NCBI GenBank assembly: GCA_947492385.1
Contig: CANLMX010000003.1
Location: 1 to 64,000 of the forward strand
DNA from: Planctomycetaceae bacterium
Lineage (GTDB): Bacteria; Planctomycetota; Phycisphaerae; Phycisphaerales; SM1A02
Length of the DNA stretch: 64,000 nucleotides
Direction: 5' to 3'
This document shows positions 10,159 through 15,177 of this stretch, in pieces; position 1 is the stretch's first letter; every line of letters begins with the position of its first letter. Position numbers and translations under genes: made by a program. The notes beneath the pieces are model-generated. The model searched no databases. It had not been told where the DNA came from and saw nothing but the letters and a program-made list of their open reading frames with translations.

Positions 10159-11286
10159 CTAGTGACGTGCCGCGTCGCCCACGCGCACGAATCCCGTGCC
10201 GCACTCGGGGCACCGTCCGCCAGGATCGCCTGGCGCGGTGGCCTGCAGGTCGAAGCCGCAGCGAAGGCAGCGTGCGCCCCCGCGGTCGAGCGCGTCGGCG
10301 ATCCGTCGCCGGCACTGCGCAAGCGCCCACGCCCCCACCAACGCCACGCCTGTCGCATCGGCCAGGATGCGCGCGTCGGTGGGAAGCCCGGCGAACCACC
10401 GATCGAAGCGCATGACGGCGTCCACGTGGAGGCGGAGCGAGGTCAGCAGCGCGATCACCGCAAAGTTGAGGACGATGACCGCCGAGATCCCGAGTGCGAT
10501 CGGCCGCACGCACAGTCGGCCCTCCTCACGGCCCTCGAGCCCGACGGCATCGCACCAGTCGAACTCCCCGTGCGTGCGCCCGCACGCAGCGCACGCAGCG
10601 CTGCCGGCATGCGGCGTGCCGCACGCCAGGCACGGGCGGACGGCCACGTTCCGTCGCATGCGCCAGCGAATCCCGGACTCCAGCAGCGCATGCGAGGCGA
10701 CGCCCGCGCCGAGCACCGCGCCGATGAACCCGTACTGCCACGGCTGCGGCGCCTTGCGCTGGAACCACGAATCGGCCAGGACGCCCAGCGGCGCGCCCGC
10801 GGCGGCGCCGAGCGCGGCCGCGGTGGTAAGGTGAAACCACGCGATGCCGTTGGCGAGCAGGCCATCCAGCGCACACGCACGGCGCCGGGCGAACAGCGCA
10901 CCGAGCCCCTGCCCCATCGGCCGGAAGGCGGCGATGAACGCCGATGCCACCGCGATGCCCGCGAGGTCCGCAAGCCAGTCTTCCAGGTCCGCCTGCCGGT
11001 GGAGCACGGGGATCGCCTGCGTCAGTTCATCGAGGGTGGCCCATGCCGCCATCACCCCCATCAGGACGGGGATCCCCCGGATCCATCGCGTTCGCCAGAG
11101 CAGCATGGCCAGGAACGCGAAGTTGCATGCGTGCGCGAGCTTGTCGACCGGGGACTCGCCGGGAGCGATGGCAAGCCGGGGCCAGTGCGTGGCGACCGCC
11201 GAGGCGGCCGCCATCACGCAGAACGCGACGCGAGCGTTGCGCGTCGCGCGCCATGACGGAGTGCCGCGGGGTGCCGGGTCGACCAC
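10159..11286 (-). CDS. VanZ-like membrane protein with two C-terminal zinc-ribbon motifs
   Basis: The 375-residue protein starts at GTG 11286, 7 bases after the ParA stop. The first ~125 residues resemble the VanZ domain, with several membrane helices and the SPVDKLAHACNFAFLA and LDELTQ elements. More membrane segments follow. The C-terminal half carries two CxxC pairs, CLACG...CAACG and CLRCG...CPECG, which look like zinc ribbons facing the cytosol. VanZ itself is linked to teicoplanin resistance, but the domain is widespread and its role here is unknown. It probably belongs to the same transcript as nadC-birA-parA. Confidence 0.75.
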   Translation of the reverse strand: MVDPAPRGTPSWRATRNARVAFCVMAAASAVATHWPRLAIAPGESPVDKLAHACNFAFLAMLLWRTRWIRGIPVLMGVMAAWATLDELTQAIPVLHRQADLEDWLADLAGIAVASAFIAAFRPMGQGLGALFARRRACALDGLLANGIAWFHLTTAAALGAAAGAPLGVLADSWFQRKAPQPWQYGFIGAVLGAGVASHALLESGIRWRMRRNVAVRPCLACGTPHAGSAACAACGRTHGEFDWCDAVGLEGREEGRLCVRPIALGISAVIVLNFAVIALLTSLRLHVDAVMRFDRWFAGLPTDARILADATGVALVGAWALAQCRRRIADALDRGGARCLRCGFDLQATAPGDPGGRCPECGTGFVRVGDAARH

Positions 11287-11293
11287 GGCGCGC

Positions 11294-12565
11294 TCAGAGG
11301 CTGAGGCCGCCGGACCGGATCGCGCGACCGCGCCCGGACGGACGCGATGCGGCGCGCACCGAGGCCTTCGCGCGCATCGACGTGCCGGCGGACTTGGCGG
11401 CTCCCGCGGGCTTCCTTGACTTCACGGGCTTCGGACGCTTCGCCGCCGGCGCCGCCCTCGTGGCCTTCGCCGCCTTCGGGGCGGGCTTCGGCTTCGTCGG
11501 CCGCACAGGCTTCGCGACCCGCTTCGGCTTCCGGGCCGCGGGCTTCGATGCCTTCGCGGCGGCGCGCGCCGCGCGCGCGGACATCCGCGCCCCGCTCGCC
11601 TTCGCGCGCAGTGGGCCTGCGGGCTTCGCACGCGACGCCTTCGCGCGTGCCGTGCGTGCCGCACGCGCCGCGCGCGGGCGCGGCGCACCCTCGAACGCGT
11701 CCGTCGAATGCCCCCATCGCTCAAGCAGCCCACGCGCGAGCTCGCGGTAGTCGGTGGCGCCCGGGCACCGCGGGGCGTAATCGAAGATCGTCTGGCCGAA
11801 GCTGGGGGCCTCGGCGAGCTTGATGTTCCGCCGCACGGGCGGCCGGAGCACGGTGGCCGCGGCCCACGGGACGTCGCTCCCGCGGAACTGCTCGAACTGC
11901 GACTCGATCTCGCCGATCACCGCGCGTCCATGCCCCGACGAGCGGTCGTGCATGCAGAGCAGAATGCCGGTCACCCGGATCGAAGGATTCAGGCCCTGGG
12001 CCACCAGGTGGACCGTCTGCAGCAGCTTCTCGAGCCCGCGCAGCGGCAGGTAATGCGCCTGCATCGGCACGAACACCTCGTCCGCCGCGGTCAGCGCGTT
12101 CACGCTCAGCACGCCCAGGCTCGGGGGGCAGTCCAGCAGCACCACGTCGTACCGGCCGGCCGCGGGCCCGAGCTTGTCGCGCAGGATGCCCTGCATCCCG
12201 TCCATCTGCGCGAGCTCGCCCTCCACCAGCGCGAGCTCGGTCACCGCCGGCACGAAGTCGAGGCCGGGCCGGGCATGCTGCACCACGTCGTCGAGCGTGC
12301 ACGCGGGGTCAAGCAGCAGGTCGCGGATCGATCGCTGCTCGGGCGTCGCCTCGACCCCGAAGTGGAGCGAGAGGTTCGACTGCGGATCGAGGTCGACGAG
12401 CAGCACGCGCCGGCCGAACCGCGCCAGCGCCGCGCCGAGGTTGACGGTGCTCGTCGTCTTCCCGACCCCGCCCTTCTGGTTCAGGAGCGCCACGACCACC
12501 GGAGGGCGCGGAGGCTCGACGTGCGCAGGCGCGGGCGCGGCGTCGATGGCGGGTTCCGTCTCCAT
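11294..12565 (-). CDS. parA: ParA family ATPase with a histone H1-like basic tail
   Basis: The 423-residue protein has a deviant Walker A motif KGGVGKTT at residues 31-38, a DLDPQ segment and LLDCPPS, which identify the ParA/Soj/MinD family. The ATPase core ends near residue 290. The remaining ~130 residues are almost wholly Ala, Lys, Arg and Pro (ARKPKRVAKPVRPTKPKP) and resemble a histone H1 C-terminal tail. That tail is not part of a normal ParA. It probably adds non-specific DNA binding, which ParA proteins otherwise achieve with a small surface patch. No parB follows. ATG 12565 is used; the open frame begins further upstream without support. Confidence 0.88.
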   Translation of the reverse strand: METEPAIDAAPAPAHVEPPRPPVVVALLNQKGGVGKTTSTVNLGAALARFGRRVLLVDLDPQSNLSLHFGVEATPEQRSIRDLLLDPACTLDDVVQHARPGLDFVPAVTELALVEGELAQMDGMQGILRDKLGPAAGRYDVVLLDCPPSLGVLSVNALTAADEVFVPMQAHYLPLRGLEKLLQTVHLVAQGLNPSIRVTGILLCMHDRSSGHGRAVIGEIESQFEQFRGSDVPWAAATVLRPPVRRNIKLAEAPSFGQTIFDYAPRCPGATDYRELARGLLERWGHSTDAFEGAPRPRAARAARTARAKASRAKPAGPLRAKASGARMSARAARAAAKASKPAARKPKRVAKPVRPTKPKPAPKAAKATRAAPAAKRPKPVKSRKPAGAAKSAGTSMRAKASVRAASRPSGRGRAIRSGGLSL

Positions 12566-12596: not shown

Positions 12597-14261
12597 TCAG
12601 CGCGCCTCGCCGCCCCACGCCGCAAGGTCGACCATCACGGCGGGCGCATGCGCACGCCACGGCGGCCGCGCGAGTGCGGCCGCCTGACGCGCGGCACCGG
12701 GTCCGGGCGAGCGTTCGAGCGACACCAGCATGGGACGTGCGTCAGGACCGCCCGCAGGCAACCACGCCTCGGGCAGCTCGACGCGTGCACGCCATCGATC
12801 GCTCCAGGCCATGAAGCCTGCGGCCACCCCGTCGTCTCCGCCATGGCGCATCTCAAGCGCGCCCGACGCGGTGACCGCGAAGGCGTGGTCCGGGGACGCG
12901 GGATCCCCGAACCGCACGATGACCTCGTCGAGCGAGGGATCGGGTGCGCCCGCGGGACGCATGGCCTCGATCATCACCTCCCATCGTCCCGCGCGCCGAC
13001 GCAGGGAGGCCGTGGTCGCCCACTCGGCGGCGACCGGCTCGATCGCCGCTGCCTGGGCGTCGGCAAGCGACAGGGGCGGCAGGAATGACCCAAAGGACAG
13101 CCCCGGTGGCCGCACGGGGTACTCGCGCGCGCCGACCGCCATGCGCATGCGCAGTTCGCCCGAGCGGATCTCGAGGACCTCGGCGCGGTCACGGCCCGCG
13201 AGCGGGTCGCCATCGGGCGGAACGACGTGCGGGCGATCGATCCAGGTGCGCGTCAGGCGCCTTGGCACGGCGACCGCGGACGACGGTGGGACGGCCGTGT
13301 CGCCGCCCAGCCACTCGCACCGGAGGACCAGCTCGCCTGAACCGGGATTCGCGACCGCAAGCAGCACACGATCGCCTGCGTCCTCCTCGATCCACGCGGT
13401 CACGGTCCAGCGCGCACGCAGCCACGTGAGCGCCGCGCGCGTCACGTCCTCGTCGCCGCGCTCGGCATCGACGAGGATCGCAAGCAGCGACCGCAGCTCG
13501 GCCGGGCGCGCGATCCATGCGGCGACCGAGCGCCCGGCGTCGAGGTCCTCCACGCAGCCCGTGAGAACGTCCAGCAGCTCCGCATGCACGCCGCGGCTGC
13601 GCCCGCGCACCCGTTCCAGCCCCGCAGCCCACAGCGAGTCGACGTGCCGCGCCCACAGCCGCTCCGCCGCGGTCCCGCGCGGTTCGCCGATGCGAGCGCC
13701 CTGCTTGGCGGCCACCAGCGCCCATCGGAAGTACTCGACCGGGGCGGCCGGATCGGGACGGTCGTCGCTCACGGTCGCGGGGATCGCCAGGAGCGGTGCG
13801 TCCCGCCGCGCGCGCTGGGGCGCAGGCAGCCACCGCGCCCGGACCGCCGCGCCGTCGACCTCGAGATCACCCTCGCCGGTCGCCGGCAGCTCGATCATGG
13901 CGAACGCGTCGGCGGTCGCGGGCTCGATGCCCGCAGGCGCCTGCTCGGAGGCCATCCACGCCACGATGCGCTCGGGTGAACGCGTCCAGTGCCGCGCCGA
14001 GGCGGGGCCCCCACCCGCGACCCGCACCACCGGTGCCGAGGTCCGCAGCCCGCCGACCGTCACGGCGATGCGTGCAGGCAGCGCGCCTGCGCCGGGCGTG
14101 AGTGGCACCGCCGCAACACCGCCGGGAACGCACGTCACCGCGTCGACGCTCGGGCGAACCTCCGCGGCCGCGGCACGCGCGCCCGCACCTGGAAACACGC
14201 CGATCACGAGCGCCGCAAGTGCCGCGATGGTCCCCGAGCGGGGAAGGCGCGTGCCTGTCAT
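12597..14261 (-). CDS. exported protein of unknown function
   Basis: The 554-residue protein begins with a signal peptide (residues 1-30, PGAGARAAAAE). It is rich in beta-type segments with no catalytic motif that I recognise. An Asp-rich C-terminal half (about residues 390-520) could be a carbohydrate-binding or Ig-like region (VEYFRWALVAAKQGARIGEP is a more helical stretch in the middle). The start at 14261 lies 4 bases after the stop of the upstream exported protein, so the two are cotranscribed and may act together at the cell surface. Confidence 0.75.
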   Translation of the reverse strand: MTGTRLPRSGTIAALAALVIGVFPGAGARAAAAEVRPSVDAVTCVPGGVAAVPLTPGAGALPARIAVTVGGLRTSAPVVRVAGGGPASARHWTRSPERIVAWMASEQAPAGIEPATADAFAMIELPATGEGDLEVDGAAVRARWLPAPQRARRDAPLLAIPATVSDDRPDPAAPVEYFRWALVAAKQGARIGEPRGTAAERLWARHVDSLWAAGLERVRGRSRGVHAELLDVLTGCVEDLDAGRSVAAWIARPAELRSLLAILVDAERGDEDVTRAALTWLRARWTVTAWIEEDAGDRVLLAVANPGSGELVLRCEWLGGDTAVPPSSAVAVPRRLTRTWIDRPHVVPPDGDPLAGRDRAEVLEIRSGELRMRMAVGAREYPVRPPGLSFGSFLPPLSLADAQAAAIEPVAAEWATTASLRRRAGRWEVMIEAMRPAGAPDPSLDEVIVRFGDPASPDHAFAVTASGALEMRHGGDDGVAAGFMAWSDRWRARVELPEAWLPAGGPDARPMLVSLERSPGPGAARQAAALARPPWRAHAPAVMVDLAAWGGEAR

Positions 14262-14265
14262 GGGG

Positions 14266-15177
14266 TCACGAAGGCTTCTTCGCACGTCGCAGCAGTTCGT
14301 CGATGCGGTCGCGGAACCCCGGCTGCTCCTCGCGCAGCGGCGGAGGAGGAGGCGCCGGCACCGGACGGGGCGAAGGGGCGGGCGTGGATGCGTCGCCACC
14401 GGGGACGTCGGACCCTCGTGGGTTCCCGCGTCCGTCGTCATTGGATCCCCGACCGGAGCCGCCCGCATCCGAAGCCCGGGTGCGGTTCGTGTCCTGCAAT
14501 GCGCCGTCCGTGCCGCGCTCGTCCGCATGCGCCGCACCGGAAGCGGGCGCCGCGGCGCGTCCCGGCGATGCGGGCTCCGCCGACGGATGGTGCGCACGCC
14601 CGTCGACGATCTGCGCGCCCGCGTCCGACGCGCGGCCATCGATGGGCGCGCCCTCGAGCCGCGTCACGCCGTGCATGGACCCCAGCGCGCTTGACGGACG
14701 CGCGGCACGCGATGCGTCGCCCGGCACGAAGTCGAGGTCGCGCATGCCGGTGCTGCGGATGGTCCGGAAGTCGGGGCGCCCGATGTAGAAGACCGTCGCC
14801 GCCGGGATCACCGCGCGCATGGCGCCGCGCTTCTGCGGGTCGCGCGTGTACGTCGACTGGTCGAAGACCGCGTAGAGCGCGCCGTTGGTGCGCATCAGGA
14901 GGTCGTCGCGCCCGGGCACCGCGTACACACGTTCGAACCCGTGGGGCGAAAGATCCACCGGCATCACGCGCAGCGAGTGCGACAGCGAGTGGCGGTCGCC
15001 CATCTGGTCGACCACGCGCGGCGCTGCATCGATCGCGTTCGGGTCGCGGGACGGCGACTGCGCATGCGCGGCCGATGCGGCCAGGATGCAGGCCACGGCC
15101 AGGCTCGGCACGTCCCGCCGGACGCGACGGGTCGCGCCAGTGCACGAGGCCAGGGCTTGGTCAGGGCGCTTCGCCAT
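14266..15177 (-). CDS. exported protein with disordered Pro/Ser-rich C-terminus
   Basis: About 303 residues. A signal peptide is present (SLAVACILAASAAHAQ). The first half (to about residue 170) looks folded, with VYAVPGRDDLLMRTNGALYAVFDQ. The second half is low-complexity Ala/Asp/Pro/Gly. A short charged helix closes the protein (FRDRIDELLRRAKKPS). Start ATG 15177 overlaps the birA stop by 17 bases; other starts at 15195 or 15222 are possible. Function unknown. Confidence 0.7.
   Translation of the reverse strand: MAKRPDQALASCTGATRRVRRDVPSLAVACILAASAAHAQSPSRDPNAIDAAPRVVDQMGDRHSLSHSLRVMPVDLSPHGFERVYAVPGRDDLLMRTNGALYAVFDQSTYTRDPQKRGAMRAVIPAATVFYIGRPDFRTIRSTGMRDLDFVPGDASRAARPSSALGSMHGVTRLEGAPIDGRASDAGAQIVDGRAHHPSAEPASPGRAAAPASGAAHADERGTDGALQDTNRTRASDAGGSGRGSNDDGRGNPRGSDVPGGDASTPAPSPRPVPAPPPPPLREEQPGFRDRIDELLRRAKKPS

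Follow-up and report, generated by a model that had tools for sequence, protein, structure and literature searches.

A ParA with a basic disordered tail and an invariant C-terminal heptapeptide in one genus of Phycisphaerales

Introduction

In the current view, ParA gradients require a DNA binding that is transient and switched by ATP. To our knowledge, chromosome segregation has been little studied in Planctomycetota. The parA gene described here, which lies in a stretch of 64,000 nucleotides (hereafter the window), encodes an ATPase followed by a long, permanently basic tail, and thus raises the question of what such a tail may do on such a protein. A natural ParA of this kind could serve to test whether an incomplete ATP switch can be tolerated, and by what means segregation is tuned. 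The window belongs to a 94-kb contig of a 2.07 Mb genome that is 69% complete, and the close relatives of the host are mostly Phycisphaerales or Planctomycetota metagenome-assembled genomes (MAGs), some of them apparently derived from lakes.

Results

An ordinary ParA core

The features of the locus are collected in Table 1. PF13614 (AAA_31) covers residues 24-197 of the protein (E = 6.5e-50), and phmmer aligned solved Soj/ParA structures to about residues 24-285, the best being 8ray (9.7e-50) and Thermus thermophilus Soj (2.8e-49). In the phmmer ranking the Soj/ParA proteins (1e-49 to 1e-38) were followed by McdA (4e-17) and MinD (1e-11). The core blocks of an AlphaFold2 model built with 44 sequences mostly exceeded a pLDDT of 80, and a Foldseek search with this model returned 8ray and Soj as the best solved folds, with 38-43% identity. 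In both sequence and fold the protein is thus nearest to Soj/ParA and not to MinD, FleN or McdA. The core carries the motifs KGGVGKTT, DLDPQSN, LLDCPPS and RRNIKLAEAPSFG, so that the deviant Walker A with its signature lysine, the aspartate of motif 2 and the Walker B are all present. The short N-terminal extension is longer and rich in glutamate in several orthologues of the genus. Judged from its sequence, the protein belongs to a ParABS system as its chromosomal ParA, and its core is ordinary.

Table 1. Features of the parA locus (window coordinates)
Feature	Position	Strand	Remarks
parA gene	11294..12565	(-)	423 aa, start ATG at 12565
N-terminal extension, residues 1-22, Pro/Ala/Glu-rich	12500..12565	(-)	start codons are predictions
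ParA/Soj ATPase core, residues 24-287	11705..12496	(-)	Pfam, PDB sequence matches, AlphaFold, folds
Basic disordered tail, residues 291-423 (133 residues)	11297..11695	(-)	composition, pLDDT
Invariant C-terminal heptapeptide RSGGLSL	11297..11317	(-)	10/10 genus orthologues
VanZ-like membrane protein gene, CxxC zinc-ribbon-like motifs	10159..11286	(-)	PF04892, E = 5.8e-7
Upstream neighbour of parA	12597-14330	(-)	no Pfam match

A basic tail whose charge is kept

The tail contains 14% lysine, 17% arginine, 30% alanine and 12% proline, which amounts to 30% K+R for only 1% D+E. The background, taken from 46 mechanically chosen frames of the window, some of them probably spurious, is 12% K+R, 2% K and 11% D+E. 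The most basic 100-residue stretch of these 46 frames is the ParA tail itself (net +33), the runner-up (net +24) being found in an ORF that is probably over-extended. The GC content at third codon positions (GC3) of the tail (0.89) is close to that of the core (0.93), which indicates that the tail is truly coding in the parA frame. Tail blocks of the AlphaFold2 model had pLDDT values of 40-61 and were coil, save for one short, low-confidence helix at residues 301-308. The preliminary description of this locus, made from the sequence alone, had recognised an ordinary ParA core with a histone H1-like tail of about 130 residues, and both observations were borne out; the same type of tail is found in other MAGs of the genus.

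We searched for the tail in relatives, first within the genus, where all 14 genomes gave some match, 12 contained a locus of the ParA orthologue and 10 loci could be measured. All 10 orthologues possess the tail, with 101-183 residues (one of them, L015, is cut by a contig end), 27-35% K+R and net charges of +32 to +52. The wider search covered 81 genomes of the family, including 78 from outside the genus; 72 non-genus loci were read, of which 69 were measurable, and the other 6 non-genus genomes had no usable ParA orthologue. A comparable basic tail was found in none of these 69 orthologues. Their tails reach at most a net charge of +13, with a median of -3 and negative values in 49 of them, and the single one with more than 25% K+R is 34 residues long. 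The preliminary description had held that absence from most relatives would point to a low-complexity accident: the tail turned out to be general within the genus and absent elsewhere in the family. In a tree of the ParA cores the genus forms a single clade (support 100/99), which is most simply explained if the basic tail was gained once. An in-frame search for similar tails in other proteins of the genus was insensitive, missing even the tails of the orthologues.

Core GC3 varies from 0.59 to 0.98 within the genus. With rising GC, lysine decreases (Spearman -0.73) and arginine increases (+0.87) in the 10 tails, whose species are not independent, while K+R is held at 27-35% and D+E at 1-4%; the correlation of K+R with GC is weak (0.54, p = 0.11, n = 10). 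Between the window ParA and its orthologue in genome G005 the cores are 83% identical, and the tails 34%, compared to 35% for shuffled tails. Several distant pairs of tails likewise show an identity at the level of shuffled sequences, close pairs being more similar, up to 83%. The charge of the tail is maintained while its sequence drifts almost freely.

An invariant C-terminal heptapeptide

The last seven residues behave differently. Wherever the 3' end of the gene lies within the contig, the genus orthologue ends in RSGGLSL (10/10); two of the 12 loci are cut. The codons used for its Arg, Ser, Gly and Leu differ among the orthologues, and this synonymous variation indicates a conservation at the protein level. 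The corresponding DNA pattern had no second match in the host genome, which dismisses the idea that this tip is common in the genome. Outside the genus, the ParA of one genome (genus g16) has a non-basic tail of 105 residues (9% K+R) that ends with RSGGISL, and g16 belongs to the same supported clade of the core tree (98/99). Tip and charge therefore appear to be separable features; RSGGISL rests on this one genome, as a second g16 species with a full ParA orthologue was sought and not found. In the monomer model RSGGLSL had no confident pose, residues 417-423 having a pLDDT below 50, and thus the model points to no partner or binding site. In the titles and abstract beginnings of the open-access papers that our searches listed, we found neither a ParA with a histone-like tail nor the string RSGGLSL. 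The preliminary description had not remarked on this terminus.

The fixed end bears on whether the tail could be a passive low-complexity expansion devoid of function. Such an origin would account for the drift to shuffled-level identity in several distant pairs, for the tandem-like SPKAAK units in the tail of L012 and for the lack of such a tail elsewhere in the family. A passive expansion would however hardly keep its charge by exchanging lysine for arginine over the whole range of core GC3 with so few acidic residues, nor a length that always exceeds 100 residues, nor a heptapeptide that is invariant despite synonymous changes. The low-complexity accident raised in the preliminary description is disfavoured by the held charge and the invariant tip, and we consider it very unlikely.

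ParB, parS and the choice of a ParA partner

The preliminary description had noted no parB or parS near the gene, and had proposed that the tail attaches this ParA to the nucleoid without a ParB. The first statement holds within the window. The host genome nevertheless encodes one ParB on another contig, C9 (frame C9:17277-18356), with PF02195 (E = 1.5e-34), HTH_ParB and the dimerisation domain ParB_C, and an N-terminus, SRLGRGLGALIP, in which a ParA-binding motif was recognised by eye. The parS pattern TGTTYCACGTGRAACA has a single exact match, at C9:18134-18149, within the parB frame, and a one-mismatch match at C9:17297-17312, at about the start of that frame; as a control, the reversed pattern gave 3 hits when up to 2 mismatches were allowed. 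With a full ParB and an exact parS in the genome, the clause "without a ParB" has to be abandoned, while attachment to the nucleoid stays plausible. ParB was detected in 12 of the 14 genus genomes; completeness is 64% and 67% in the two others. From the sequences, the intragenic parS looks conserved. VPRGT, the peptide expected from an in-frame parS, occurs in ParB of all five frames compared (L005, L127, L133, L135 and L136).

In the host genome parA and parB are carried on separate contigs, and their pairing was assessed from residues. In Myxococcus xanthus ParA, ParB-facing and DNA-binding residues have been tested experimentally, and that report describes Tyr81 as invariant and required for ParB-stimulated ATPase activity (PMC12462528). 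The D-to-A site and the Y, E, D and E residues of 8ray match the numbering given there exactly, and we infer that 8ray is M. xanthus ParA. We aligned 81 cores of the family (11 from the genus, 70 from outside) and a second ParA-like protein of the host to M. xanthus ParA. In this numbering the window ParA keeps D58, D60, N64 and E117, with E82 replaced by D, D110 by E and R238 by K. The equivalents of D58, D60 and N64 are present in 11/11 genus cores, and the DNA-binding R238 position is a lysine, still basic, in all of them. In the pocket for the central arginine of ParB, Y81 is an arginine in 11/11 genus cores, E82 is D, D110 is E and E117 is kept.

Of the 70 non-genus cores, 63 have Tyr at position 81 and four have Arg, the remaining three having S, G or L; all seven exceptions fall in the clade of the core tree that contains the genus. 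The codon concerned is at 12323-12325 (-) of the window; besides the genus, g42, g43 and g6 show Arg at this position, and g39 and g2 show S, G or L. The possibility that the Tyr81-to-Arg change arrived together with the tail was rejected, as g42, g43 and g6 have the arginine without the tail.

The second ParA-like gene of the host (L002) is on contig C13, directly downstream of a gene identified by eye as aroB-like, and an FlhG-like gene on C2 adjoins a gene that looks, again by eye, FlhF-like. At the positions listed above the C13 protein has H64, Q81, A82, S110, A117 and V238. Proteins of the C13 type were the second-ranked ParA match through most of the family search. As the residues facing the ParB arginine and DNA are lost in it, the aroB-adjacent protein is disfavoured as the true partner of ParB; the window ParA, which keeps ParB- and DNA-facing residues, is the likely one, a pairing based on residues and on there being no better candidate in the 69%-complete genome.

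The tip itself might imitate the ParA-activating motif at the N-terminus of ParB, so that this ParA would carry its own activator or blocker. The ParB sequence SRLGRGLGALIP and the ParA tip, [IL]RSGGLSL after basic residues, are both basic and rich in Gly and Leu, a likeness judged by eye and without a score, and the arginine of the genus occupies the position of the tyrosine needed for ParB-stimulated ATPase in M. xanthus. However, g42, g43 and g6 have this arginine and not the motif, g16 has the motif and keeps the tyrosine, and the monomer model shows no docking. Moreover, helices form poorly at GG, whereas the N-terminal peptide of ParB is reported to turn helical (PMC12462528). Such mimicry seems to us far-fetched.

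Neighbours of parA and tails of other genera

The VanZ-like gene begins 7 bases downstream of parA. Using a profile built from the window gene, we found a VanZ-like relative adjoining parA in 75 of 84 loci, on the same strand in 74. Of the nine loci without it, six have no more than 202 bases downstream and three (L058, L059 and L123) have at least 1.5 kb. The conserved pair across nearly all genera of the family is parA-vanZ, not parA-parB. The upstream neighbour is kept in 11/11 genus loci (L039-L049) and in several other genera.

The ParA tails of other genera (L053-L123) are for the most part acidic and have a short motif of the type [VI]-E-x-K-P in common. An expectation-maximisation search on one tail per genus, for 43 genera besides that of the window (44 tails in a first run), gave a log-likelihood of 103.6, where 40 shuffles averaged 72.5 (sd 3.1) and reached at most 81.0; this search was exploratory, devised after the tails had been read by eye, and related genera are not independent. 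Tails of g7, g14, g17 and g38 carry near-end strings such as AGTISVEPR and SATLSVEPK, which by eye resemble the GGLSL tip. These sequences hint that a flexible tail bearing a docking motif is a general feature of the ParA of the family, the variant of the genus being one such tail.

One candidate for a docking site is the adjoining VanZ-like membrane protein, which would tie ParA to the envelope. The frequency of the gene pair, the short downstream sequence in six of the nine misses and the presence of a short conserved motif in the tails of other genera all speak for it. But gene pairing is no proof of binding, the motif varies between genera though the neighbour is constant, and three loci lack the VanZ-like gene despite ample downstream sequence, so that we hold this docking to be improbable. 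A broader reading is that in this family the ParA tail is usually flexible and contains a short docking motif by which ParA is linked to some protein besides ParB, perhaps the VanZ-like one, and that in the genus the tail became a DNA-binding leash with RSGGLSL as its hook; we regard it as rather doubtful.

Discussion

Possible roles of the tail and the tip

From its sequence, we favour, with a probability of roughly 60%, the interpretation that the ParA of a ParABS system has acquired a DNA-binding leash with a hook at its tip. In this view the tail would attach without specificity to DNA or other polyanions, whatever the ATP state. It would thereby raise the residence of ParA on the nucleoid, supplementing the DNA-binding surface of the core, and would keep ParA close to DNA following ParB-triggered hydrolysis. 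RSGGLSL at the tip may be a short motif on which a partner protein docks. The leash is suggested by the composition of the tail together with precedents. In Pseudomonas, the H1-like tails of AlgP and PhaF have been proposed as tethers between granules and the nucleoid; peptides from the tail are reported to bind DNA, and its deletion to upset the spacing of the granules (PMC9239181). In M. xanthus, the basic tail of FrzCD is reported to bind the nucleoid (PMC5716589). For the hook, conservation is what we go by. A point against the leash is that a permanently DNA-bound ParA could harm the ATP-switched cycle that ParABS requires.

Polyanions are indistinguishable by the composition of the tail, and its target could instead be polyphosphate, RNA or acidic proteins, the tail tuning the solubility of ParA or its condensates. 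AlgP, with a similar tail, is reported to associate with polyphosphate granules (PMC9239181), and the Glu-rich N-terminal extensions of some genus members could pair with the tail. On the nucleoid, where ParA works, DNA is however the most abundant polyanion, and we consider another target unlikely. On the more doubtful broader reading given above, this ParA would be a three-part device (switch, leash and hook) bound to the nucleoid throughout its ATP cycle, for which the standard diffusion-ratchet model has no room. The fixed tip is a better clue than the basic tail that was first noted, and its seven residues could serve as bait for finding a new ParA partner.

Comparison with known systems

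The window protein resembles Soj/ParA of ParABS systems (1wcv/2bek, 8ray) in its ATPase core of about 260 residues, its Walker motifs and its fold, and, as in these systems, ParB and parS are present in the same genome. It differs from Soj/ParA by its 133-residue basic tail and fixed C-terminal heptapeptide, and from Soj by an 11-residue insert ahead of RRNIKLAEAPS; unlike in Soj/ParA systems, parB is not next to parA and an arginine stands at the M. xanthus Tyr81 position. Like MinD (PMC9178275), it is a ParA-superfamily ATPase with a C-terminal element that may serve localisation, an amphipathic membrane helix in the case of MinD. In the window ParA this region is instead a basic coil, with a pLDDT below 50 in its last residues, that ends in RSGGLSL, which by inspection is not amphipathic.

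A bacterial likeness to the tail's make-up is seen in AlgP/PhaF of Pseudomonas, with a long, disordered C-terminal tail of Lys, Ala and Pro. The other domain of AlgP is short and helical and no ATPase, and by its description AlgP is set apart further, the available part of the report mentioning KPAA tandem repeats and noting no fixed terminal peptide (PMC9239181). The C-terminal domain of linker histone H1 is similar in being disordered, rich in Lys, Ala, Pro and Ser and poor in acids, a similarity of kind and not of descent. Unlike linker histone H1, the window ParA is devoid of a globular winged-helix domain, and no histone family matched it in Pfam or among the best 25 of 30 NCBIfam matches. 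In FtsZ and SSB, a disordered linker that evolves rapidly leads to a C-terminal peptide that does not vary. The window ParA shares this arrangement with them, although the folds are unrelated and the linker is here strongly basic. The protein is thus a genus-wide variant of a known protein, in which the core is ordinary and the tail moderately surprising.
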